Part shown: one piece after another, positions 545-42,606 of the stretch
How positions within the stretch are numbered: position 1 is the first letter of the stretch
Layout: the number at the start of each line of letters is the position of its first letter
Assembly (NCBI GenBank): GCA_947629755.1
Contig: CANREY010000003.1
Coordinates: forward strand, 1 to 52,493
Length of the DNA: 52,493 nucleotides
Source: an uncultured Oscillospiraceae bacterium
GTDB taxonomy: Bacteria; Bacillota; Clostridia; Oscillospirales; Oscillospiraceae
Direction of reading: 5' to 3'
Notes under the pieces: model-generated
The model's input: only the letters and a program-made list of their open reading frames with translations
What the model was told of the DNA's origin: nothing
Databases searched by the model: none
Made by a program: the position numbers and the translations under genes

Positions 545-1435
545 TTATTTCTCCCCCGCGAGCTTCCGAAGCTCCCGGAGCCTGTGATTGAGGCCCGATT
601 TCGTCACCTTCGGGTCGCACAGCGCCCCCAGCTCCTCCAAGCTCAGCTCCGGGTTCTCCTCCCGAAGACGCGCGGCCTCCTGAAGCTTGGGGGAGAGATT
701 TTCAAGCTCCCCGGTGCTTCTCAGCTTCCTTATGGCCTCCAGTGTGGCGGCGCTGGCCTCCACCGTCTTTGTGACGTTGGCGGTGTCGCAGTTGACCTTG
801 CGGTTGACCTGATTTGTCATGTCCTTTTCTATCTTCGCCGCCATCACCCGCATTGCCGCCAGCGGCGCGCCCAGAGTGGTCAGCAGGTCCTCTATGAGGT
901 CCGACTGCTTGAAGTACATGATGTAGTTGCCGCCCCTGGCCACGCTCTTTGGCTCAAAGCCCATGTCGTGGAAAAGGGCCGTTATCTCCCGGCTCACCGT
1001 GTAGTGGGCCGTCGCCAGCTCCATGTGATACCGTTTCTCCGGGTCCGTGACGGAGCCCCCCGCCAAAAAGGCCCCCCTCAAAAACGCCGTTCTGGCCTGC
1101 TCGTCCTCAAGTATGCCCAGATTCACGTGGTGGCGCACAAGTCCCCCCACATAGCCGAACTGGTCCAGTATCCTCCCGATACTCTCCGTATTCCTTATGA
1201 CGAAGGCCCTCCCCCGTCCGTTCTCCGGCGTCTCATCGAAGCTTAAGGAGAACGCCTTCATCAGGAGCTTCGGCAGTCTCTGGGCGAAGCACTCCGACCT
1301 TGTCTGGATACGTATCTCCCGGCTGTCGAAGGTGTTGCAAAAGAGCATCACGCCGTAGCACTCCGCCAGCGCCTGGGAGCGGGCGCTCAGGCTCACGCGG
1401 CACAGCTCGGCCTTTACCTCCGCTGAAAAAGACAT
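545..1435 (-). CDS. whiA: Sporulation/division regulator WhiA
   Basis: A 296-residue protein of the usual WhiA length. The N-terminal two thirds carry the degenerate LAGLIDADG homing-endonuclease-like fold (FLRGAFLAGGSVTDPEKRYH near residue 119). The C-terminus is a helix-turn-helix segment (LEELGALCDPKVTKSGLNHR). In actinobacteria WhiA is a sporulation transcription factor; in Firmicutes it affects division and chromosome segregation. It starts 12 bases after rapZ and is followed by dnaE. In many Firmicutes yvcK lies between rapZ and whiA; it is absent here. Confidence is high from the ends of the protein and the context. Confidence 0.95.
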   Translation of the reverse strand: MSFSAEVKAELCRVSLSARSQALAECYGVMLFCNTFDSREIRIQTRSECFAQRLPKLLMKAFSLSFDETPENGRGRAFVIRNTESIGRILDQFGYVGGLVRHHVNLGILEDEQARTAFLRGAFLAGGSVTDPEKRYHMELATAHYTVSREITALFHDMGFEPKSVARGGNYIMYFKQSDLIEDLLTTLGAPLAAMRVMAAKIEKDMTNQVNRKVNCDTANVTKTVEASAATLEAIRKLRSTGELENLSPKLQEAARLREENPELSLEELGALCDPKVTKSGLNHRLRELRKLAGEK

Positions 1436-1447
1436 GGTCCCACCCCG

Positions 1448-2305
1448 TTACATCTTCGCTATGTCCCGGTGTATGCACTCCACCTCGTGGCCCCGGCCCT
1501 CAAGGTACCGCGCCAGCGCCTCGGTGACCGCCACGGACCGGTGGTGGCCGCCTGTACAGCCGATGCACACCGTCAGGTTCATCTTCCCCTCCTCCTGATA
1601 ATTGGGCAGGAGGAAGTCTATAAGCTCCTCTAATTTCCCCAAAAACTCCTTTGCCTGGTCGGAGCTGAACACGTAATCGTAGACGTCGTCGTCAAGGCCG
1701 TTTTTCTCCGTGAGCTCCGGCACGTAGAAGGGGTTGGGCAAAAATCTCACGTCGAACACAAGGTCCGCCTCTATGGGTATGCCGTACTTGTAGCCGAAGG
1801 ACATGACCGACACCCTCAGCTTCTCCGCGTCCCCCACGCCGAAAAGCCGCTGGAGCGTCCGCTGGAGCCGTCCCAGCGTGAGCCCCGTGGTGTTTATAAC
1901 GAAGTCCGCCCTGGCCCTTACGCCCTCCAGCATCTTTATCTCCCGCCGGACGGCGTTCTCAAGCCCCCCGCCCTCGGTATCAAGTGGGTGGCGGCGGCGT
2001 GTCTCCTTGTAGCGCTTGACTATTGTGTCAACTGAGGCGTCAATGTAGAGTATCTTGTACTCAAACCCCGCCGCCCCCAGCTCGTCAAGGGCCTTGAAAA
2101 GCTCGTCAAAGCCCTCTCTCGACCTGATGTCCGACACCAGCGCCACACGCTCATAGCGCCCCCTTGTGGCGGCGCACAGCTCGGCGAATTTAGGTATCAG
2201 CGCCACGGGCATATTGTCCACGCAGTAAAAGTCCAGATCCTCCAGCGCCGCGGCCACCCGGCTCTTGCCGGCCCCGGAGAGCCCTGAGATTATCAGCATA
2301 TCCAT
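1448..2305 (-). CDS. rapZ: RNase adapter / nucleotide-binding protein RapZ (YvcJ)
   Basis: This P-loop protein has a Walker A motif GLSGAGKS at residues 8-15 and the family's C-terminal CIGCTGGHHRSV segment. I chose the ATG that follows GAGGTG with a 6-base spacer (285 residues) rather than the in-frame GTG three codons upstream, which overlaps the ribosome site itself. In E. coli RapZ senses UDP-GlcNAc-pathway metabolites and guides RNase E; in Bacillus YvcJ is a GTPase/ATPase linked to competence. It sits 45 bases after murB in a tight minus-strand operon, so a tie to cell-wall precursor supply is plausible but inferred. Confidence 0.95.
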   Translation of the reverse strand: MDMLIISGLSGAGKSRVAAALEDLDFYCVDNMPVALIPKFAELCAATRGRYERVALVSDIRSREGFDELFKALDELGAAGFEYKILYIDASVDTIVKRYKETRRRHPLDTEGGGLENAVRREIKMLEGVRARADFVINTTGLTLGRLQRTLQRLFGVGDAEKLRVSVMSFGYKYGIPIEADLVFDVRFLPNPFYVPELTEKNGLDDDVYDYVFSSDQAKEFLGKLEELIDFLLPNYQEEGKMNLTVCIGCTGGHHRSVAVTEALARYLEGRGHEVECIHRDIAKM

Positions 2306-2350
2306 CGGTATCACCTCAAAACGCGTATGTTTGTTTTTTACGCCTTTACG

Positions 2351-3259
2351 TCACTTTATTATCCTGACCTCAGGCTCCAATGCCACGCCGGAGCTCTCAA
2401 ATACTCTCTCCTTTACCGTCTCCATAAGCCCTAAAACGTCCTCAAATGTGGCCTCCCCCGTATTTACGATGAACCCGGCGTGCTTTTCCGACACCTGAGC
2501 CCCGCCCAACGTAAGGCCCTTGAGCCCCGCCTCGTCTATGAGTTTCGCCGCAAAGCCGTTCTCCGGCCTCTTGAAGGTACTCCCGGCGGAGGGCAGATTT
2601 AGGGGCTGTTTTTCACGCCTCATACCGTCCAGCTCCTCCATGCGCTCACGTATCTTCGCTGGGTCTCCGGGCCTTAAGCGCAGCGTGGCCGAGAGTATGG
2701 CCTCACCCGTGCCCTCAAACCTGCTGTGGCGGTAGGAAAAGTCGCACTCCGCCCCGGTCACGGTCCTGAGAGTGCCCATGGCGTCAAGGTACGTCACGGC
2801 CTCCACCACGTCCCGTATCTCCCCGCCGTAGGCCCCGGCGTTCATATATATGCCCCCGCCCAACGAGCCCGGTATGCCGTGGGCAAACTCAAGGCCCGTG
2901 AGCCCCTCCTTCGCCGCGCCGGAGGACACCCTTGAGAGCAGTACCCCCGCGCCGGAGATCACCGTGTCCCCGGCAAAGCGCAGAGTATCGAGCCTCGCCG
3001 TGCCCAGCACCGCCAGCTCATGCCGCCTGTCGGAAAAGAGCACGTTTGAGCCGTTGCCGAGTATCATGTACTCTATTTTCCGCCGCTTTAGCTCCCTGAC
3101 GGCCCAGACGAATGCCTCTATGCTCTTGGGCTCGGCGTATAAGCTCACCGCCCCGCCTATACGGAAGGTGGTGTGCTTCCTCATTGGCTCGCCAAAAAAT
3201 ATTCCCGTTCCGGGGTAGCCTGAGTTCAGCTCCCGCGCGAACGCTTCAATAGGCTCCAT
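2351..3259 (-). CDS. murB: UDP-N-acetylenolpyruvoylglucosamine reductase
   Basis: MurB uses FAD and NADPH to reduce enolpyruvyl-UDP-GlcNAc to UDP-MurNAc in the cytoplasm, the second committed step of peptidoglycan synthesis. The 302-residue protein shows the FAD-binding signature GNGSNVLFSD near residue 88 and the catalytic-loop motif SAGSTFKRP that carries the proton-donor serine. The conserved C-terminal glutamate is visible in LEPEVRII. Its ATG overlaps the hprK stop by one base (TGATG), so the two are probably translationally coupled. In many bacteria murB lies in the division cluster; here it is in the hprK operon, as is common in Clostridia. Confidence 0.96.
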   Translation of the reverse strand: MEPIEAFARELNSGYPGTGIFFGEPMRKHTTFRIGGAVSLYAEPKSIEAFVWAVRELKRRKIEYMILGNGSNVLFSDRRHELAVLGTARLDTLRFAGDTVISGAGVLLSRVSSGAAKEGLTGLEFAHGIPGSLGGGIYMNAGAYGGEIRDVVEAVTYLDAMGTLRTVTGAECDFSYRHSRFEGTGEAILSATLRLRPGDPAKIRERMEELDGMRREKQPLNLPSAGSTFKRPENGFAAKLIDEAGLKGLTLGGAQVSEKHAGFIVNTGEATFEDVLGLMETVKERVFESSGVALEPEVRIIK

Positions 3260-4200
3260 CAGTTATTCTCCAGACTGTCAAAATAGTCGTCAAGCTGCTC
3301 GGCGAAGTCCTTGCCGGAGTTGAGGCCCATGCGCTTTTGCCTGTTGTTCATGGCCGCCACCTCGATTATGACCGCAAGGTTCCTCCCCGGCCTTATGGGC
3401 ACCACGATGTATGGCACCTTCACGCCAAGTATGTCTATCTCCTCGGTGTCCGTGCCCATGCGGTCGTAGGCGTTCTCGGCGTTCCAGTTTTCGAGCTTTA
3501 TGACCAGGTCCACCTTCTCGCTCCACTTGACGGCCCCGTTGCCGAATATCCTGCGCACGTCCACCACGCCGATGCCCCGAAGCTCGATGTAGTTGCGTAT
3601 GAGGTCCGGCGCCGTGCCCGTGAGGGTGGTGGAGTTCACCTTCTTTATTATCACCGCGTCGTCGGATATGAGGTGGTGTCCCCGCTTTATGAGCTCTATG
3701 GCCGTCTCCGACTTGCCCATTCCGCTCTCGCCCAGTATGAGCACTCCCTCGGAATAGACCTCCAAAAACACCCCGTGGCGCATTATCTGGGGCGCCAAGG
3801 CGTTATTGAGCTTCGTTGTGAGCTCGATTATGAGCTCCGATGTCTCCCGGTGGGACTTGAGTATAGTAATGTCGTGCTCGCGGGCCGAGTCCAGCGTCCC
3901 CTCCGGTATGTTCACGTCGTGGGCGATAATTATGGCCGGCACGCCGCTTGCCATGAGCTTGTCGAGCTTGGTCCGGCGCTCCTCCTCGGAAAACTGCTGG
4001 AGGTACGCGTCCTCGTTCCAGCCCAGTATCTGGAGCCGGTCCGTGGCGAAGTTCGTGTAAAACCCGGTGAGCTGAAGTCCGGGCCTGTTGATGACGGCGG
4101 TGGTTATGAGCTTCTTGGCGTAGTCGGTGGAAGTGAAAAGGGGCTCTAAGCCGATCTGCTCGGCCAAAAGCTTCAGCGGCATTCCGTGCAATGTATCCAT
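3259..4200 (-). CDS. hprK: HPr kinase/phosphorylase
   Basis: This bifunctional enzyme phosphorylates and dephosphorylates Ser46 of HPr or Crh in response to glycolytic metabolites, driving CcpA-type catabolite control. The P-loop GESGMGKS is at residues 157-164 and is followed by the SDDAV segment. The family signature RGIGVVDVRRIFG lies about 55 residues further on. Length (313) is standard. GGGAGG stands 9 bases before the ATG. It is the first gene of the operon and has its own sigma-A-like promoter. Its likely partner in this window is the HPr-like protein at 35.9 kb, which keeps Ser46 but not His15. Confidence 0.96.
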   Translation of the reverse strand: MDTLHGMPLKLLAEQIGLEPLFTSTDYAKKLITTAVINRPGLQLTGFYTNFATDRLQILGWNEDAYLQQFSEEERRTKLDKLMASGVPAIIIAHDVNIPEGTLDSAREHDITILKSHRETSELIIELTTKLNNALAPQIMRHGVFLEVYSEGVLILGESGMGKSETAIELIKRGHHLISDDAVIIKKVNSTTLTGTAPDLIRNYIELRGIGVVDVRRIFGNGAVKWSEKVDLVIKLENWNAENAYDRMGTDTEEIDILGVKVPYIVVPIRPGRNLAVIIEVAAMNNRQKRMGLNSGKDFAEQLDDYFDSLENN

Positions 4201-33242: not shown

Positions 33243-33782
33243 TCAAATCCTCGTAAACGTCGTAAGCTTTATCCTGCCATAGCCGTACTCACGGGCTGTA
33301 AATCTGTCCTCCGGGAGCTTCAGCAACTCCTTTTCCCGTGGGCTTTCACAAATCATTATACCATTTTTATTCAATATGTCAAACCCTCCGAGAATTTTTA
33401 TCGCTTTTTCCAATAGATCCGTGGCGTAGGGCGGGTCAAGGAACACAAGGTCGAAGCCCTCCGCCGACTCAAGATAGGCTATGGAGTCGTATTTCAGCAC
33501 CTTCGCCGCCGCCTCAAGCCCCGTGGCCCTCAGATTTTCCCGCACTATTTTCAGCGCCTCCGGGCTCCTGTCCACGAACACGCACTCCGAGGCCCCGCGA
33601 CTGAGCGCCTCTATCCCCAGCTGTCCCGTGCCGGCGAAAAGGTCCAGCACCCTTGCCCCCGGTACGGAGAACTGGACTATGTTGAACATAGCCTCCTTCA
33701 CCTTGTCCGTCGTGGGCCGAATGTCGTAATTTTCCGGCTCCCGGAGCCTCCTGCCCCTGGCCGATCCCGTTATGACTCTCAT
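33243..33782 (-). CDS. rsmD: 16S rRNA m2G966 methyltransferase RsmD
   Basis: A 179-residue Rossmann methyltransferase. RVITGSARGRRL opens the protein, DLFAGTGQLGIEALSRGA is the SAM site, and VFLDPPYA is the DPPY catalytic motif of N2-guanine methylases. It overlaps uvrC by 4 bases. Confidence 0.95.
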   Translation of the reverse strand: MRVITGSARGRRLREPENYDIRPTTDKVKEAMFNIVQFSVPGARVLDLFAGTGQLGIEALSRGASECVFVDRSPEALKIVRENLRATGLEAAAKVLKYDSIAYLESAEGFDLVFLDPPYATDLLEKAIKILGGFDILNKNGIMICESPREKELLKLPEDRFTAREYGYGRIKLTTFTRI

Positions 33783-35605
33783 TTTTCTTCCCCTTCGTGG
33801 AAATTGTCGTATACCGCCTTGGCCGCGTTTTTCGGTATGACGGTGGAAAGCTCCTCCAAGCTCGCGCTCTCGATTGCATTCACGCTCTTAAAGTGCCGCA
33901 GAAGCTCCGCCTTTCGCTTCTCCCCCACTCCCTCAATGCCGTCGAGCCGGGACTTCTTCACCCGCTTTGACCTTAAGGAGCGGTGGTACTCAATGGCGAA
34001 CCTGTGCGTCTCCTCCTGTATGTTCCCAATGAACGCGAAAGCCGCCGGGTTTGCCTGTATGCCTATCTCCCGGCCCTCCGGCGTCACAAGGGCCCTTGTG
34101 CGGTGCCTGTCGTCCTTGACCATGCCGAACACCGGCACGTGTACCCCGGTACTCTCCATGGCCTCCCGTGCCGCCTCGGCGTGCCTGTCCCCGCCGTCTA
34201 TGAGCAGCAGGTCCGGAAGCTCCGAAAAGCTCTCGTCGCCCTTCGCGTATCTTACGAACCTCCTCCCCACGGCCTCACGCATGGAGCCGTAGTCGTCCTG
34301 CCCCTCTATTGTTTTCATCTTGAATTTTTTATATTCGCTCTTTTTCGGCTTCCCGTCCACGAACACCACCATGGAGGCCACCACGTCGTCAGCCCCCGTG
34401 TTTGAAATATCGAAGCTCTCCACTCTTTTCGGGATATTCTCAAGCCCCAGCGCCCCCATGAGCCACTGGGCCGTCTTTGAGACCCTCTCGGTGGCGGTGG
34501 TGTTCCGCTCCACCTCCTCCTTGGCGTTGACCCCGGCGGCCAGTATAAACTGCCTGTACATTCCCCTCTGTGGCGTGGTCACATTGACCGCGTGGCCCGC
34601 CTTCTCAGTCAAAAACCTTGAAAGCTCCTCCATATCCTCCGTCTCCACGGGCAGGAGCACCCGCGAGGGTATGAGCTCCGCGTCCATATAGTACTGCCTC
34701 ACAAGGAGCGACACCGACTCCGCCACGTCCCCCATGGGGTCCTCAAAAAGCTCGCAGTCCTTGGCTAAAAGCTGTCCCTGAACATAGTGGAGCACCGCGA
34801 AGGCCGACTTGGCCTCCCCCTCGAAAAATCCCACGGCGTCCGTATCGGAAGCCCCCTTGTTGAGAACCGTCTGACGCGTCTCCAATAGCTCCAGCGCCTT
34901 CACCGTGTCCCGGAGCTTCGCGGCCTCCTCGAACCTGAGCTCCTCCGCCGCCTTTGTCATCTTCTCCGTAAGCTCCGCCGTCAGCTCCCGGCCCCGGCCC
35001 TTGAGCACCATGACCGCCTCCGCCACGCGGGCCTTGTAGTCCTCCTCCGCCGGCACTCCCCGGCACCAGGCGTCGCACACGCCCATGTGGTGGTTAAGGC
35101 ATGGCCGCTCACGGCCTATATCCCTCGGAAACCTCCGGGTGCAGGTGGGGAGCTTCAGCGCCTTCAACAATAGCTCCAGCGCCGTCTTCGTGTTCCCGCG
35201 GGAGCCGAAGGGCCCATAATACTCCGCCCCGTCCTTCCCCCTCCGGGAGGCTATGGAGAAGCGCGGATAGGGGCTTTTTATGTCCAGCCTTATAAAGGGA
35301 TACCCCTTGTCGTCCTTTAAAAGTATGTTGTACTTTGGCTTATAGTGCTTTATGAGGGAGTTTTCCAGCACCAGCGCCTCAAACTCCGACTTTGCGATTA
35401 TGACCTCAAAGTCGTCGATGTTGGAGATCATGGCCTCGGTCTTAAGGTTGTGAGAGCCGTGGAAATAGGAGCTCACCCTGTTTTTCAGCGCCTTGGCCTT
35501 CCCCACATAAATAACCGTCCCGTCAGCGGCGTGCATGATATAACACCCCGGTTTGAGCGGCAGCGCCCCCGCCTTCTCCCTCAATTCATCAAGCTTCCTG
35601 TTCAT
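33779..35605 (-). CDS. uvrC: Excinuclease ABC subunit C
   Basis: UvrC makes both incisions in nucleotide excision repair. Domain order is complete in 608 residues: the GIY-YIG nuclease (PGCYIMHAADGTVIYVGKAK), the UVR domain (EELRFEEAAKLRDTVKALE), the RNase H-like nuclease (ESFDISNTGADDVVASMVVF), and tandem helix-hairpin-helix units (LDGIEGVGEKRKAELLRHFK). AGAGGTG precedes the ATG. First gene of the uvrC-rsmD-coaD-coiled-coil operon. No clear promoter was seen in the 80 bases upstream. Confidence 0.97.
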   Translation of the reverse strand: MNRKLDELREKAGALPLKPGCYIMHAADGTVIYVGKAKALKNRVSSYFHGSHNLKTEAMISNIDDFEVIIAKSEFEALVLENSLIKHYKPKYNILLKDDKGYPFIRLDIKSPYPRFSIASRRGKDGAEYYGPFGSRGNTKTALELLLKALKLPTCTRRFPRDIGRERPCLNHHMGVCDAWCRGVPAEEDYKARVAEAVMVLKGRGRELTAELTEKMTKAAEELRFEEAAKLRDTVKALELLETRQTVLNKGASDTDAVGFFEGEAKSAFAVLHYVQGQLLAKDCELFEDPMGDVAESVSLLVRQYYMDAELIPSRVLLPVETEDMEELSRFLTEKAGHAVNVTTPQRGMYRQFILAAGVNAKEEVERNTTATERVSKTAQWLMGALGLENIPKRVESFDISNTGADDVVASMVVFVDGKPKKSEYKKFKMKTIEGQDDYGSMREAVGRRFVRYAKGDESFSELPDLLLIDGGDRHAEAAREAMESTGVHVPVFGMVKDDRHRTRALVTPEGREIGIQANPAAFAFIGNIQEETHRFAIEYHRSLRSKRVKKSRLDGIEGVGEKRKAELLRHFKSVNAIESASLEELSTVIPKNAAKAVYDNFHEGEEK

Positions 35606-35683
35606 TCCACACCTCTTTCCCCTCGTCCTTGCGCGCTCTGATGTCCGCTGACAAGCTCCAACTAAGCGTACCCTAAATCAAAT

Positions 35684-35857
35684 ATTTTTCGCAAGGACAT
35701 GCGCCTTGCGAAAAATACCTTTTGTCACGCAAGTGTGCCGCTTGCGGCGCGCGCGGCGTGACGGCAGGAAAAATTTGCGAATAGGTCCGCAGACCTTTTC
35801 GCGAATTTTTCCGCACGTTCCCCTTTGTCAGCAAAGGCCCCATGGGCCTTTGCTGAC
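35684..35857 (+). repeat. Dispersed structured repeat, copy R2 (complete, compact form)
   Basis: Four stems lie in order in the gap between ptsH and uvrC. (1) ATTTTTCGCAAGG / CCTTGCGAAAAAT, a perfect 13-bp hairpin. (2) A core closed by GTCACGC (35724) / GCGTGAC (35756) with inner GCCGCttGCGGC and flanking AGTGT and GCGCG. (3) A long hairpin 35767-35812 ending in AGGTCcgcaGACCT. (4) A palindrome GTCAGCAAAGGCCC / GGGCCTTTGCTGAC. The same order recurs at 47.5 kb with different but still paired stem sequences. The remaining bases 35606-35683 hold nothing I can name. Confidence 0.85.
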
Positions 35858-35861
35858 ATTT

Positions 35862-35898
35862 AAAGCGGCCTGTTTCATTTTTTGAAACAGGCCGCTTT
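35862..35898. terminator. Terminator after the HPr-like gene
   Basis: A 15-bp perfect stem AAAGCGGCCTGTTTC / GAAACAGGCCGCTTT starting 16 bases past the stop codon. The T-tract is better on the plus strand (TTTTATAT), so it may act both ways. Confidence 0.75.
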
Positions 35899-35913: not shown

Positions 35914-36177
35914 TTACTCGGCGAAGTCGTGGGAGATGAGCTCGCACAGCGTCTCAACGGCACGCTCCTCGTCCTCGCCATCGGCGGAGATGGAGACGGA
36001 CATGCCCTTGATTATCCCCAGAGACAGGACGCCCAGAAGGCTCTTGGCGTTGACGCGCCGCTCCTCCTTCTCTATCCAGACCTGGCACTTGAACTCGTTG
36101 GCTTTCTGGGTGAAAAACGTCGCGGGCCTCGCGCGGAGTCCGACCTGATTTTTGACCTCTACTGTTTTAGCAAACAT
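35914..36177 (-). CDS. HPr-like regulatory protein with Arg in place of His15 (Crh-like)
   Basis: An 87-residue HPr-fold protein. The active-site histidine that accepts phosphate from EI is replaced: positions 12-18 read VGLRARP, with Arg15 encoded by CGC. Ser46, the HprK target, is kept in VNAKSLLGVLSLG. It therefore cannot act as a normal PTS phosphocarrier. It resembles Bacillus Crh (Gln15), which only signals to CcpA after HprK phosphorylation. hprK is also in this window. It has a good promoter, AAGGAGG ribosome site and terminator, so it is expressed alone. Similar Arg15 proteins are, from memory, common in Clostridia and often labelled HPr. Confidence 0.92.
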   Translation of the reverse strand: MFAKTVEVKNQVGLRARPATFFTQKANEFKCQVWIEKEERRVNAKSLLGVLSLGIIKGMSVSISADGEDEERAVETLCELISHDFAE

Positions 36178-36237
36178 GTATGCCCCTCCTTATTAAAGTG
36201 CGTGTAGCCGACGCTTGAGCTTTGTTAGAATAAAAAT

Positions 36238-36266
36238 ATTTTACCAAAGCGCGCCCCGCCCGTCAA
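36238..36266 (-). promoter_or_regulatory. Promoter of the HPr-like gene
   Basis: TTGACG, 17 bases, TAAAAT on the minus strand, 60 bases before the ATG. Confidence 0.78.
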
Positions 36267-36350: not shown

Positions 36351-38720
36351 CTACTTTATCTCCACGATCGTCACGCCGCTCTCGCCCTCGCCGTACCGGC
36401 CCAGACGGTAGCTTTTCACCTGCTTTGACCGCTTTAAGCAATCGTGTACGGCCTTGCGCAGCACTCCCGTACCCTTGCCGTGTATGACGGTCACCGTGTT
36501 CATGTGTCGCATCTGCGCCCCGTCTATGAACCTCTCTAAGAGCGCCACCGTCTCGTCCGCCGTCATGCCCCGGACGTCGAGCTCCGATTTGGCGCTCTCG
36601 GTCGACATTGGCACCGACACCTGAGCCGGCTTTACCTTGACCTTCTCCTGCTCCACCACCCGGACCTCGCTCTGCTTGGCGGTGACCTTCATTATCCCCG
36701 CCTGGAGGCTCAGCGTCCCGTCGGGATTCACCTCCAACACCGTGGCCTTGGAGCCTATGGATATTATCTCCACCGTGTCGCCCTTCACCGCCGGCCTTGT
36801 GGGCTTTCGCTCAATGGGGGCCTCCCGCTCCGGCGTGACTTTGGCCTCCGCCTCGTTAAGCCCCTGGCGGAGCTTCGTTCTGGCCTCGTTGAGCCTCTGC
36901 CAGTCAGCGTCCGTCGCCGCCTCCCGGCGCATTCTGTCTATCTCCCGGAATGCCTCGTCCGCGGCCCTTTTGGCGTCCTCAAGTATCCTCTCGGCCTCGC
37001 CTCTGGCGTTCTTTGTAAATTTAAGTCTCTCCTCCTCGGCCCTTTTCCGCTCCTTCTCCGCCGCGTCCAGATCCTCCCTGGCCCGTCTCAGCGTCTCCTC
37101 CGTCCGGGCCCTGTGCTCCTCCGCGTCCCGGCGGTTCTCCTCAAGCTTCGTCAGGGCCTCCTCAAAGTCCACGTCCCCCTTGTCCATTCTGCGCCTTGCG
37201 TCCTCTATTATGTGCTCCGGCAGCCCCAGCCTCTCGGATATGGCAAAGGCGTTGGACTTTCCCGGTATGCCCATCAAGAGCCGGTAGGTGGGCTTTAAGG
37301 TCTTAACGTCAAACTCGCAGGAGGCGTTCATAACGCCCCTCTCCGTCATGGCGTATATCTTCAGCTCCGCATAGTGGGTGGTGGCCGCGATGCGGGCCCC
37401 CACGGACCGGGCGTACTCTATTATGGCCACGGCCAGCGCCGCGCCCTCCGCCGGGTCCGTCCCCGCGCCCAGCTCGTCAAAGAGCACCAGCGACCCCTCG
37501 CCGCACTCGGAGAGTATCCCCACGATGTTCGTCATGTGGGAGGAAAAGGTACTGAGGGACTGCTCTATGGACTGCTCGTCGCCGATGTCCGCCAGAATTT
37601 TGTCAAAAAGCGGCACCCGGCTCTCGTCCCCCGCCGGTATGTGCAGGCCGCACTGGGCCATGAGGCATATGAGCCCCAAGGTCTTTATGCTCACCGTCTT
37701 GCCCCCGGTGTTGGGCCCCGTTATGACCAGCGTGTCAAAGTCCCCGCCAAGCTCGATGTCAATGGGCACCGCCTCGGACTTTTTAAGAAGCGGGTGTCTT
37801 GCCTTTTTCAGCACTATCTCGTCCTTATCCGAAAGCTCCGGCGCCACGCACTCAAGGTCATAGCTCAGCTTCGCCTTGGCAAAGACGAGGTCGAGCTGGG
37901 TGAGCAGGTTGTAGTCCAAAATTATGCTCTCGGAAAAATCCGCCGCCTCGGCGGACATCTCCCTGAGTATCCGCTCTATCTCCCGCTCCTCACGGGCCAG
38001 AAGCTCCCGGATCTCGTTATTCGCCTTCACCGCGCTCATGGGCTCGATGAACAGCGTGGCCCCGGAGGAGCTCACGTCGTGGGTGAGCCCCGGCACGGCC
38101 CCCTTGTGCTCGGCCTTCACCGGCACCACGTACCGGCCGTTTTTCATTGTTATTATGGGCTCCTGGAGGGCCTTTTGATAGGTCGGGGAGGTTATTATCT
38201 TCTGAAGCGCCTCCCTCACCCGGCTCCCCGCCACACGCATGGCCCTTCTTATATCCGCAAGCTCCGACGAGGCGGAGTCGGCAAGCTCGTTTTCACCTAT
38301 TATGGAGTTCGTTATCTTCTCCTCTAAATACTTGTTTGCGTGCAGGGAGGAAAATAGATACCCGATACTCCTCGCCCCGCTCTCGTCCCCGGAGGCGTAG
38401 GCTATGGCGCTCCTTGCCTCCCTCAGGACATGGGCGATGTCCATAAGCTCCCTTGTGTTGAGCATTCCCCCGGCGTCGGCCCTCTTTAAGCTGTCGCGAA
38501 TGTCCTTCACCCCGGAAAATGACGGCGACGAGTAGAGCACCATCATCTCCTTAGCGTCCGTCGTCTCCTGAAGTCTCCGCTCCGCCTCGGCCCTGTCCGA
38601 CGTAGGCGCCAGAGCCCTCGCGGCCTCCTTGGCCCCGTCGCTCACCGCCTCCGCCGCCAGCATCTCAAGCACCGCCGGCAGCTCCAATATCCCCTGCGAC
38701 TTCTCATAAAGCGTCATCAT
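36351..38720 (-). CDS. mutS2: MutS2 endonuclease/ATPase
   Basis: A 789-residue MutS2: the MutS core with Walker A GPNTGGKTVSIKTLG, then LVLFDELGAGTDP and ATTHYAELK. A long charged coiled coil (about 520-640) follows, and a C-terminal Smr nuclease domain with LDVRGMTADE and HGKGTGVLR. There is no mismatch-binding domain, as usual. MutS2 limits recombination and, in Bacillus, rescues collided ribosomes. Two adjacent ATGs follow GGGGGTGAG; the first is used. Confidence 0.97.
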   Translation of the reverse strand: MMTLYEKSQGILELPAVLEMLAAEAVSDGAKEAARALAPTSDRAEAERRLQETTDAKEMMVLYSSPSFSGVKDIRDSLKRADAGGMLNTRELMDIAHVLREARSAIAYASGDESGARSIGYLFSSLHANKYLEEKITNSIIGENELADSASSELADIRRAMRVAGSRVREALQKIITSPTYQKALQEPIITMKNGRYVVPVKAEHKGAVPGLTHDVSSSGATLFIEPMSAVKANNEIRELLAREEREIERILREMSAEAADFSESIILDYNLLTQLDLVFAKAKLSYDLECVAPELSDKDEIVLKKARHPLLKKSEAVPIDIELGGDFDTLVITGPNTGGKTVSIKTLGLICLMAQCGLHIPAGDESRVPLFDKILADIGDEQSIEQSLSTFSSHMTNIVGILSECGEGSLVLFDELGAGTDPAEGAALAVAIIEYARSVGARIAATTHYAELKIYAMTERGVMNASCEFDVKTLKPTYRLLMGIPGKSNAFAISERLGLPEHIIEDARRRMDKGDVDFEEALTKLEENRRDAEEHRARTEETLRRAREDLDAAEKERKRAEEERLKFTKNARGEAERILEDAKRAADEAFREIDRMRREAATDADWQRLNEARTKLRQGLNEAEAKVTPEREAPIERKPTRPAVKGDTVEIISIGSKATVLEVNPDGTLSLQAGIMKVTAKQSEVRVVEQEKVKVKPAQVSVPMSTESAKSELDVRGMTADETVALLERFIDGAQMRHMNTVTVIHGKGTGVLRKAVHDCLKRSKQVKSYRLGRYGEGESGVTIVEIK

Positions 38721-39270: not shown

Positions 39271-39978
39271 TCATTTGTCCATTCTTATCAATTTCTTGAC
39301 CCGCTTATACAGCGGAAGCGTGATCACCGACACGGCCACGGCTTTTATGAGATTGAAGGGCGCCACGCAAAGGGCGGCCATGGTGTAGACGGAGTTGACG
39401 CTGGCGTTTATGGCATGCGCCGCGTCGATTATGGCCTCTATGGGCATGTGATAGAGGGCGGCGAAGGCCGGTATGAGGTAGAAGGCGTTGAACAAGCTCC
39501 CGAACACCGTCATAATGAGCCCGCCGGATACAAGGGCGATAACGGCCCTCTTGAAGGTGCGCTTGGAATTATAGATTATAGCCGCCGGCAGCACCATGGA
39601 GCACCCCACGGCGAAGTTGGCAAAATCTCCCACGAAGGCCGTTGTGGTCCCCTTCAGGAGGAGCTTTATCACCACCTTCAGAAATTCACACACCACCCCC
39701 GCTGTGGGGCCCATGGAGAAGGCGCAGATGAGCACCGGTATCTCCGAAAAGTCCAGCTTGTAGAAGTTCGGCGCGATGAATACCAGAGACACCTCCAGCA
39801 GCATCAGCACCCCGGCAAGCGCCGCGAACATGCCCATGTAGGCCACGTAGCGGGCGGGCTCTAATTTCCGCCGCTCCTTCACCAAAAACCGCTCGGCCAG
39901 CCACGCCACGGCCACAAGGCCCGCGAAGATGGCCACGCACACGAGGACGAAGGACAGGTTTTCTTTCAGTGTTTGCAT
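39271..39978 (-). CDS. ribU: ECF riboflavin transporter substrate-binding subunit RibU
   Basis: A 235-residue membrane protein with the RibU core LDFSEIPVLICAFSMGPTAG, then EFLKVVIKLLLKGTTTAFVG and DFANF. One extra N-terminal helix precedes the usual six. RibU binds riboflavin and works with the shared ECF module (EcfA/A'/T), which is not in this window. The ATG after AAAGGGGT is chosen because the longer frame runs into the riboswitch terminator. An FMN riboswitch in its leader confirms the vitamin. Confidence 0.93.
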   Translation of the reverse strand: MQTLKENLSFVLVCVAIFAGLVAVAWLAERFLVKERRKLEPARYVAYMGMFAALAGVLMLLEVSLVFIAPNFYKLDFSEIPVLICAFSMGPTAGVVCEFLKVVIKLLLKGTTTAFVGDFANFAVGCSMVLPAAIIYNSKRTFKRAVIALVSGGLIMTVFGSLFNAFYLIPAFAALYHMPIEAIIDAAHAINASVNSVYTMAALCVAPFNLIKAVAVSVITLPLYKRVKKLIRMDK

Positions 39979-40004
39979 AGATAAGACCCCTTTACATGAA
40001 AAAT

Positions 40005-40028
40005 GCGCCTGAACGGACCGTTCAGGCG
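40005..40028 (-). terminator. Terminator of the FMN riboswitch
   Basis: Read on the minus strand, GCGCCTGAACGG pairs with CCGTTCAGGCGC and is followed by ATTTTTC. It lies between the aptamer and the ribU ribosome site, so FMN binding should favour early termination. Confidence 0.85.
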
Positions 40029-40059
40029 CGTTACGCGCAAGGGGAGTGTAGCAATCGTA

Positions 40060-40166
40060 CATCTTCTCTCATCCAGACTTTACTGTCGGTACCGGAATCA
40101 CACCGGTTCAGCTAAACGCTCGCGGACTTTCACCGCCGGTCGGGAATCTCACCCTGCCCTGAAGAC
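40060..40166 (-). promoter_or_regulatory. FMN riboswitch (RFN element) controlling ribU
   Basis: The minus strand carries the RFN consensus blocks in order: TTCAGGGCAGGGTGAGATTC, CCGACCGGCGGTGAAAGTCC, GCGAGC, GTGATTCCGGTACCGACAGT and AAAGTCTGGATGAGAGAAGA. All are close to the Bacillus elements. It represses ribU when FMN is plentiful. Confidence 0.96.
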
Positions 40167-40217: not shown

Positions 40218-40332
40218 TACATATCAGCAATTTATTTTTCACCTTTACGTGAAATGACCAATTTCATCATTTGACCTGTGTATCATTATGGTAAACCATT
40301 CAGGTTATATTGCACGCAAAGGGGAGTTTGAT

Positions 40333-42606
40333 TTGAAAGAGAACGTAAAGGACGCACCGTCAAAGCTTGACCGGGTGAAGTTAGCTGAGTACGCCGCGAG
40401 GTTCACCATGTCGGCCATGCTGGGGAGCGTCAGGATATTCGGGAGCTTCTCTCCCTTCGGGCCGGCGTTTCTTGGCGCCGCTCCCAAGGGGGCGGCGGGA
40501 GCGGTGACGCTGGCCGGGGCGCTCATTGGCGCTCTTGTCTCCGGCGGTGTCGCCACAAGCGTCAAATACATAGCCGCCGCTATACTTATCTGGTCCACTA
40601 TACACTTTTTCGCCGACTCCTGCCCGGACTGGTTCCCCATGGCGGTCGTATTCGGCGTGATGGCCGTGGTCGGCGCCGTATTCGCCTGGGACACGGGTTG
40701 GGAGCTTCGGGCCACCTGCCTTTGGGTGGTGGAGACCTTTATGGCCGGGGGCTTCGTCTATTTTTACGCCTCCGCCCTCGCCCCCATCGACGGCCCCGCG
40801 CAGACCGAGGCCAGGGCCGCCCAGACGGCGAGCCTTACGATACTGGCGGCCACGCTCTTAATGTCCCTGTCCCCCTTGGAGCTTTTCGGCGTACTGTCCA
40901 TCGGCCGGTGCGCCGCGGTGGTGGCGGTGCTCTTTGTGACCTACCGTGGCAGCATGGGCATGGGCTGTGTCTGCGGCGCGGTGCTGGGGGCGGCCATGGA
41001 CCTTGCCCAGGGTGGACTTCCCTTTTTCACCATGAGCTACGCCTTTTCCGCCGTGATAGCCGGTATCTTCTCAAGGTCCGGGCGGCTCCCGTTCCTCTTA
41101 GGCTATTTTGCCGGGTCGTCCCTGTCCGTACTCTGGTACTGGGGCGGCCACCGGTGGCTGATGGCCCTCTATGAGACCTTCGCCGCCCTTGTGATCTTCG
41201 CCCTCCTGCCGGAGGAGGCCATGACGAAGGCTGCCGTATTTCTGCCCCGGTCCGTCCATGGCTACGGCTTTTTGAAGGCCCGCGAGTACACCCGTGACCG
41301 TGTGGACATGTGCGCCCAGGCATTTAAAAAGCTCTACGATACCGTCCGTGAGTCCGCCGGGGCCGCCGATAACGACAGCGTCGACGTCATATTCGACCGC
41401 GCCGCCGAGGCCGTGTGCCGCTCCTGCCCCCACTCGGCCCGGTGCTGGCAGGAGAAATACGTGGATACGGTGGACGTGATGAACGGCCTTACGCCCGTCC
41501 TCGCCTCCCGCGGGACGGCGGAGCTCTCGGACCTTCCGGAGCACTTCATAAAAAGCTGTGACCGGTCAGAGCGCCTCGTCTCCGCCATAAACGCCGAGGC
41601 CCGGACCGTCCTCACAAGGCGGCAGTACCGTGCCCGGCTCCGGGAGAGCCGCGACGCGGCCTTCGCCCAGTATGAGCACGTATCGAAGCTTCTAAGCTCC
41701 CTCTCCCGTGAACTCGGAAGCGAGATGACCGTTGAGACCGCCCTTGAGCGCAAGCTCCAGAAATATCTTCGCGGTATGGCCATAAGCTCCTCCGTGGCGG
41801 TGTTCCGCGTCCGCGGCGGGCGGCTCCGGGCGGAGATAAGCTCCAACAGCCTTGGACTATTAAAGCGCGACGAGCTGTGGCTGGACAAGCTCTCCCAAGT
41901 CCTTGGCGTGCGGCTGTGTACCGGCGACGGGGACTTAAGCTCCGGCGCGCTGGTGCTCCTTGAGGCCGAGCCGTTGGCGCTGCGCGTGGGCGAGGCCAAC
42001 GCGAAAAAATCCGGCGAGACGGTGTCCGGGGACAGAAGCATGTGCTTTCGCACCGACGAGGGTATGCTCTACGTGATTTTGTCCGACGGCATGGGCTCCG
42101 GCCCTGAGGCCGCACGTATGTCCGGCGCGGCCCTCAATATCCTTGAGCGCTTCCTCAGGGCCGGCGTCACGCCGGAGCTGGCGCTCAGTATACTCTCCGA
42201 CCTCTACCTCCTCCGGGGCGGCGACGGCCTTGAGTGCGCCACAGTGGACCTTTTGCGCGTCAACATGTTCACCGGCGAGGCCTGCCTCTATAAATGCGGC
42301 GCGGCCCCGTCCTACGTAAAGCGCGGCAAGGGCGTAAAGCGCTACGCCTCCCCCGGCGTGAACCTCCGGGGCGGGACGAAAAAGCTCGGCTCAAAGCTCA
42401 CCCTCTCCCCCGGAACCTTGGCCGTAATGGCCTCCGACGGCCTCACCGCCGGCCCCGACGACAGATGGCTTCGCGACGCGCTTGCCGAGCTCGACGCCTC
42501 CGACCCCGGCGCTCTCGCCCGTGAGCTCATCTCAAAGGCCCGTGAGCGCGTCGGCGACGAGGACGACATGACCGTCATAGCCGTCGCCTGCGAGGAGAGG
42601 GAATAA
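40333..42606 (+). CDS. spoIIE: Stage II sporulation protein E (PP2C phosphatase)
   Basis: A 757-residue protein with a long N-terminal membrane domain of about ten helices (residues 25-310), a central region with a cysteine motif (CRSCPHSARCWQ), and a C-terminal PP2C phosphatase domain (MLYVILSDGMGSGPEAARMS; LAVMASDGLTAGPDD). SpoIIE dephosphorylates SpoIIAA to release sigma-F in the forespore and sits at the polar septum. The start is taken as TTG with AAAGGGGAG six bases upstream; an ATG 15 codons earlier has no ribosome site. It is the clearest sporulation marker in the window. Confidence 0.93.
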   Translation: MKENVKDAPSKLDRVKLAEYAARFTMSAMLGSVRIFGSFSPFGPAFLGAAPKGAAGAVTLAGALIGALVSGGVATSVKYIAAAILIWSTIHFFADSCPDWFPMAVVFGVMAVVGAVFAWDTGWELRATCLWVVETFMAGGFVYFYASALAPIDGPAQTEARAAQTASLTILAATLLMSLSPLELFGVLSIGRCAAVVAVLFVTYRGSMGMGCVCGAVLGAAMDLAQGGLPFFTMSYAFSAVIAGIFSRSGRLPFLLGYFAGSSLSVLWYWGGHRWLMALYETFAALVIFALLPEEAMTKAAVFLPRSVHGYGFLKAREYTRDRVDMCAQAFKKLYDTVRESAGAADNDSVDVIFDRAAEAVCRSCPHSARCWQEKYVDTVDVMNGLTPVLASRGTAELSDLPEHFIKSCDRSERLVSAINAEARTVLTRRQYRARLRESRDAAFAQYEHVSKLLSSLSRELGSEMTVETALERKLQKYLRGMAISSSVAVFRVRGGRLRAEISSNSLGLLKRDELWLDKLSQVLGVRLCTGDGDLSSGALVLLEAEPLALRVGEANAKKSGETVSGDRSMCFRTDEGMLYVILSDGMGSGPEAARMSGAALNILERFLRAGVTPELALSILSDLYLLRGGDGLECATVDLLRVNMFTGEACLYKCGAAPSYVKRGKGVKRYASPGVNLRGGTKKLGSKLTLSPGTLAVMASDGLTAGPDDRWLRDALAELDASDPGALARELISKARERVGDEDDMTVIAVACEERE

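Follow-up and report, generated by a model that had tools for sequence, protein, structure and literature searches.

What is the role of an HPr-family protein that has lost the catalytic histidine but kept the serine targeted by HPr kinase? This question is raised by a gene in the genome of an uncultured gut bacterium of the Oscillospiraceae (Clostridia), within the window (the whole stretch of 52,493 nucleotides that was analyzed). The protein could be a carrier of the sugar phosphotransferase system (PTS), a dedicated signaling protein or a gene product on its way to loss.

An HPr-family protein with arginine at position 15

The ORF is located on the minus strand and encodes 87 amino acids (MFAKTVEVKNQVGLRARPATFF...RRVNAKSLLGVLSLG...); the plus-strand frame at the same positions is unrelated to HPr. 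The gene and its surroundings include the following features:

33779..35605 (-), uvrC, the conserved downstream neighbor of the HPr gene
35862..35898 (-), 16-bp hairpin directly 3' of the HPr gene (fold z-score -6; short U tail)
35914..36177 (-), HPr-family protein with Arg15 and Ser46, the sole HPr detected in the genome
36040..36042 (-), codon 46, AGC (Ser, the HprK target site), within the NAKSLLG loop
36133..36135 (-), codon 15, CGC (Arg, replacing the catalytic His); relatives use CGC, CGT or AGA
36183..36191 (-), ribosome-binding-like sequence AAGGAGGGG upstream of the ATG of the HPr gene
36238..36266 (-), promoter-like site by consensus match only, TTGACG-17-TAAAAT, with a TG preceding the second hexamer
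36351..38720 (-), mutS2, the conserved upstream neighbor of the HPr gene

The protein scores far above the curated cut-offs of the HPr family in profile searches (103.2 bits with PF00381, cut-off 23; 96.5 bits with TIGR01003, cut-off 47.9) and falls within the length range of the family, about 85-90 amino acids. Judging by homology to solved HPr and Crh structures, its fold can be considered fixed. Residues 12-18 read VGLRARP, so that the GLHARP motif with His15 that characterizes PtsH is replaced by GLRARP, whereas Ser46 is surrounded by VNAKSLLGVLSLG and its loop is conserved. The lack of His15 together with the retention of Ser46 is a feature of Crh. Both residue assignments agree with the initial annotation of this locus, to which only the strand has to be added.

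The promoter-like site, about 60 bases upstream of the gene, the ribosome-binding-like sequence and the 3' hairpin, which is probably the transcript end, together make the HPr gene look independently transcribed. The standard gene order in the relatives is mutS2 - HPr - uvrC - rsmD - coaD, which is found also in Pseudoflavonifractor. Given the conserved mutS2 - HPr - uvrC synteny, the window gene is the ordinary HPr of the family, with the histidine replaced, and not an acquired extra copy.

Several other features of this region can be mentioned. Between uvrC and the HPr gene, there is a hairpin of 14 pairs with a T-rich stretch after it (35683-35717, plus strand). Beyond mutS2, the window encodes a putative membrane subunit of an ECF transporter (39271-40062, minus strand), with weak matches only, to the MPN527 and folT families, and a SpoIIE-like protein (40288-42606, plus strand; 327 bits compared with the equivalog cut-off of 491), which suggests that the lineage is spore-forming or was so formerly.

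Arginine 15 is genuine and maintained by selection

Because CGC is only one base away from the histidine codon CAC, the substitution might reflect a sequencing or assembly error, the very finding that, according to the initial annotation, would undo the case. However, Arg15 is present in all three sampled genomes of the genus (the window genome, G020 and G118) and in eight loci of the genome_contigs set, and the independent assemblies encode it with three different codons, CGC, CGT and AGA. An error is thereby ruled out for all practical purposes, its probability being negligible. The closest relatives in genome_contigs, uncultured Oscillospiraceae of the 'Lapin' series (presumably from rabbit gut), show 93-97% identity, and all have Arg15. 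Pairwise dN/dS values for the window gene and the loci L162-L165 are between 0.02 and 0.12 (the misaligned L038 was left out). Thus, both the gene and Arg15 are subject to purifying selection.

A single HPr, no detectable PTS and an intact HPr kinase

The window genome (2.2 Mb in 130 contigs) is 97.5% complete, and the absences reported for it rest on family searches. The PF00381 search yielded a single match, the Arg15 gene itself, and no second HPr. The N-terminal domain of enzyme I (EI) that binds HPr, PF05524, has no match in this genome, nor does the PTS EIIC domain of the PF02378 type, so that the EI and EII that accompany a genuine PtsH were not detected with these models. The only match to PF02896 (PEP-utilizers_C), on contig C88, was considered as a hidden EI and rejected: it covers the C-terminal region of a pyruvate phosphate dikinase, which scores 560 bits with TIGR01828 compared with 115 bits for the EI model. 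The EI N-terminal domain was not found in G020 (100% complete) or G118 (99% complete) either, and both these genomes encode the Arg15 protein as well as HprK. An EI gene could be hidden in the few percent that the assembly of the window genome lacks, but this is implausible for all three genomes of the genus.

The kinase is encoded by a single gene, located in the window as originally reported, in a cluster about 30 kb from the HPr gene:

3259..4200 (-), hprK, HPr(Ser) kinase/phosphorylase, 313 aa (TIGR00679, 349.1 bits, cut-off 240)
545..3259 (-), murB (2351-3259), rapZ (1448-2314) and whiA (545-1435), downstream of hprK

The signature and catalytic motifs of HprK are intact, starting at residues 142 (HGVF), 157 (the Walker A motif GESGMGKS), 179 (SDD), 208 (RGIGVVDV) and 270 (RPGRNLA), and the gene order hprK-murB-rapZ-whiA is shared with G020 and G118.

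The initial annotation had predicted a signal-only protein and had proposed looking for EI, EII and a second HPr. The outcome of this search, a sole HPr with neither PF05524 nor a PF02378-type EIIC detected, conforms to the prediction and, along with the HprK with its catalytic motifs, gives good support to the view that the protein is signal-only and not a PTS carrier.

HPr without enzyme I across the Oscillospiraceae

Among 151 Oscillospiraceae genomes, 98 of them of good quality, PF00381 is represented in 141 (97 of the 98) and HprK in 146 (again, 97 of the 98), compared with only 40 genomes (34 of the 98) for the EI N-terminal domain. About three quarters of the 151 genomes have no detectable EI, HPr and HprK are nearly universal, and most of the EI-less genomes keep His15.

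Residue 15 was read in 153 HPr copies from 122 genomes, leaving out 19 of the 141 HPr-bearing genomes, in which the matches were weak or were not among the matches listed. The orthologues of the window gene, with their NAKSLLG-type loop, number 114 copies, which have His (99), Tyr (5), Arg (4), Phe (3) or Gln (2) in this position, with one copy unread. Of the 14 genomes with a His15-less orthologue, 12 are EI-less, and the other two have EI along with a second HPr that contains His15.

The orthologues from EI-less genomes with the exact NAKSLLG motif form a set of 83, all with Ser46, in which N43-G49 are invariant by the selection of the set; the only EI-less orthologue excluded by this filter has NGKSLLG. 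In these orthologues, Gly13, Leu14 and Ala16 are each conserved in 82 of 82 and Arg17 in 81 of 82 sequences, compared with 70 His, 5 Tyr, 4 Arg, 2 Phe and 1 Gln at residue 15 (n=82). Residue 15 is the sole loose position in the active-site loop, which is frozen elsewhere. Among all 153 copies that were read, the 14 without His15 uniformly have Ser46; 21 copies with His15 lack Ser at position 46, and these are mostly EI-linked paralogues.

The association between the loss of His15 and the absence of EI is not significant (Fisher p = 0.35). About 70 EI-less genomes retain His15, so that the loss of EI alone is insufficient to explain the change of residue 15, and the His15 of these genomes must either have another use or be subject to slow loss. 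A tree of 183 HPr sequences, built with column 15 omitted, places the window protein among the His15 orthologues of Oscillospiraceae and implies about 10 changes of residue 15, two of these to Arg; these are rough counts, the tree being poorly resolved, with too few columns for a rooted history of residue 15.

Comparison with Crh, PtsH and incomplete PTS

The window protein resembles Crh of B. subtilis and its relatives in the HPr fold and length, the lack of His15, the conserved Ser46 loop and the presence of HprK in the genome, and in a phmmer search it is more similar to Crh structures (72 bits) than to B. subtilis HPr (57 bits). The differences are, however, substantial. The window protein has Arg where Crh has Gln, scores 93.9 bits with the Crh model NF010354 (PRK13782), below the equivalog cut-off of 123, and is nested among family orthologues that have His15; no other HPr was found in its genome, whereas Crh is a paralogue that coexists with an ordinary HPr and a complete PTS. 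The genomic contexts differ as well. The B. subtilis crh gene belongs to the rapZ/whiA operon (yvcJKL-crh), whereas the window gene lies between mutS2 and uvrC, outside any such operon, in a genome without a recognizable CcpA.

As for HPr/PtsH, the window protein shares with it the membership in PF00381 and TIGR01003, and its closest match among solved structures is an HPr with His15 (3le1, 93 bits); it differs in having no catalytic His15 and in coming from a genome in which EI and a PF02378-type EIIC were not found. HPr-type proteins without sugar permeases or without EI are known from the incomplete PTS of Brucella, Bartonella, Ureaplasma and C. cellulolyticum. In the genomes of 2004, HPr without EI was reported to be rare (PMC2405797). 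C. cellulolyticum is described as having no HPr orthologue or cognate EII but a Crh-like protein (PMC3656788), namely, Ccel_0806. Unlike in these cases, HPr without a detected EI is the majority state in Oscillospiraceae, and residue 15 has been replaced several times. Lack of His15 is known from the HPr proteins called Crh, with Gln15 in Parageobacillus (PMC9631020; see also PMC3526391); literature searches on Oscillospiraceae or Ruminococcus retrieved no specific report of HPr without EI.

The designation of the protein as a Crh analogue in the initial annotation thus holds with respect to function, inasmuch as this is predicted from residues 15 and 46, but not in the sense of Crh itself, given the score below the equivalog cut-off and the independent loss of His15. 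With the sub-threshold Crh score, the status of the sole HPr and the His15 ancestors within its own family, the window protein is classed apart from Crh: it appears to be an independently arisen, signal-only HPr of a lineage without a detectable PTS, Crh-like in residues 15 and 46.

Candidate readers of the Ser46 state

In Bacillus, both HPr and Crh phosphorylated on Ser46 act on CcpA. Across the 151 Oscillospiraceae genomes, matches to the CcpA model TIGR01481 do not exceed 219 bits, the best in the window genome being 163 bits; among 245 Clostridia genomes, about twenty scores of 290-375 bits come from other families. The curated cut-off of 442 is reached in none of the 245 Clostridia and is therefore unusable alone, so that the score groups were compared instead; this comparison is suggestive of the absence of CcpA. 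Accordingly, the term 'Crh analogue' does not imply a CcpA co-repressor, in either this genome or this family.

Classical catabolite repression, in which the Ser46-phosphorylated protein would bind a CcpA-like LacI protein and repress catabolic genes, nevertheless deserves consideration. The window genome encodes three LacI-type regulators, and, as read from the alignments, the two top-scoring ones can be aligned with CcpA and retain the Arg at the position that in CcpA contacts Ser46-P (PMC4591507). Both, however, lack the Tyr-Asp of CcpA, some eight residues before that Arg, and their scores fall short of the 290-375 bits seen in other Clostridia families. By inspection of translations, all three genes adjoin those for sugar ABC transporters or glycosidases, as is typical of local regulators. 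Thus, a classical CcpA in this genome is unlikely on the evidence of these alignments and scores, and we regard repression of this type as improbable. Without a recognizable CcpA, the candidates for the effector would be a LacI-type local regulator, an ABC transporter of sugars or methylglyoxal synthase (MgsA).

The last of these corresponds to a more specific mechanism, in which the unphosphorylated HPr-like protein would inhibit MgsA, as Bacillus Crh does, and phosphorylation of Ser46 by HprK at high levels of glycolytic intermediates would free the enzyme, providing for carbon-overflow control without CcpA or PTS. That Crh controls MgsA through the state of Ser46 is established for B. subtilis (Landmann 2011, according to PMC9631020), the window genome encodes an MgsA homologue above the NF003559 cut-off (G000 C40; 114.6 bits, cut-off 84), and MGSA matches are present in 144 of the 151 Oscillospiraceae genomes. 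Such co-occurrence is no proof of contact, however, because both genes are nearly universal in the family. The homologue, furthermore, is below the cut-off of the stricter TIGR00160 model (110 compared with 147 bits), and its gene is located away from hprK and the HPr gene. On balance, inhibition of MgsA is an unlikely, if concrete, form of the proposed signaling. The homologue itself is short (L246:2675-3076, minus strand; C40 in the window genome), and its neighbors are a MinD-like gene and an ORF resembling HisS. The MGSA matches of Oscillospiraceae are mostly under the TIGR00160 cut-off, so that the homologue may differ from the classical MgsA.

A probable signaling protein rather than a carrier

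Relaxed decay of the protein after the loss of EI, with Arg15 a neutral step on the way to the loss of the gene, could be thought to account for the diversity of residue 15 in the EI-less relatives (His, Tyr, Arg, Phe or Gln), with about 10 changes on the poorly resolved tree. This scenario is hard to reconcile with the strong purifying selection on the rest of the protein, the invariant Ser46 loop of all 83 EI-less orthologues selected by the exact NAKSLLG motif, the retention of Arg through synonymous codon changes and the persistence of an HPr gene in nearly all good-quality genomes of the family. We therefore consider decay highly improbable.

Most likely, the HPr-like protein is a dedicated HprK reporter, that is, a signal protein and not a PTS carrier. 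Under this interpretation, HprK would phosphorylate and dephosphorylate Ser46, and the ratio of Ser46-P to Ser46 would be read by a partner protein. In Firmicutes, HprK proteins answer to glycolytic intermediates and phosphate, and the Ser46 state of the HPr-like protein would track the glycolytic flux. With Arg15 in place and no EI or PTS permease detected, the protein could not serve in the transfer of phosphate from PEP to sugars, and there would no longer be the antagonism that usually exists between His15-P and Ser46-P. More tentatively, and with some doubt, it can be proposed that Oscillospiraceae in general run HprK and Ser46 of HPr as a stand-alone metabolic switch, mostly without EI and without CcpA, that the effector is either methylglyoxal synthase or a protein new as an HPr partner, and that, in the genus represented by the window, Arg15 has joined the effector-binding surface.

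In routine annotation, such a gene is named ptsH or "phosphocarrier protein HPr", which implies a sugar PTS; none was found in this genome. The pattern in Oscillospiraceae amounts to a natural experiment that parts the two jobs of HPr, with the transport residue 15 varying and the signaling residue Ser46 staying invariant. It poses a testable question, namely, which protein reads HPr-Ser46-P in bacteria without a detectable PTS or a recognizable CcpA, including many abundant gut anaerobes.
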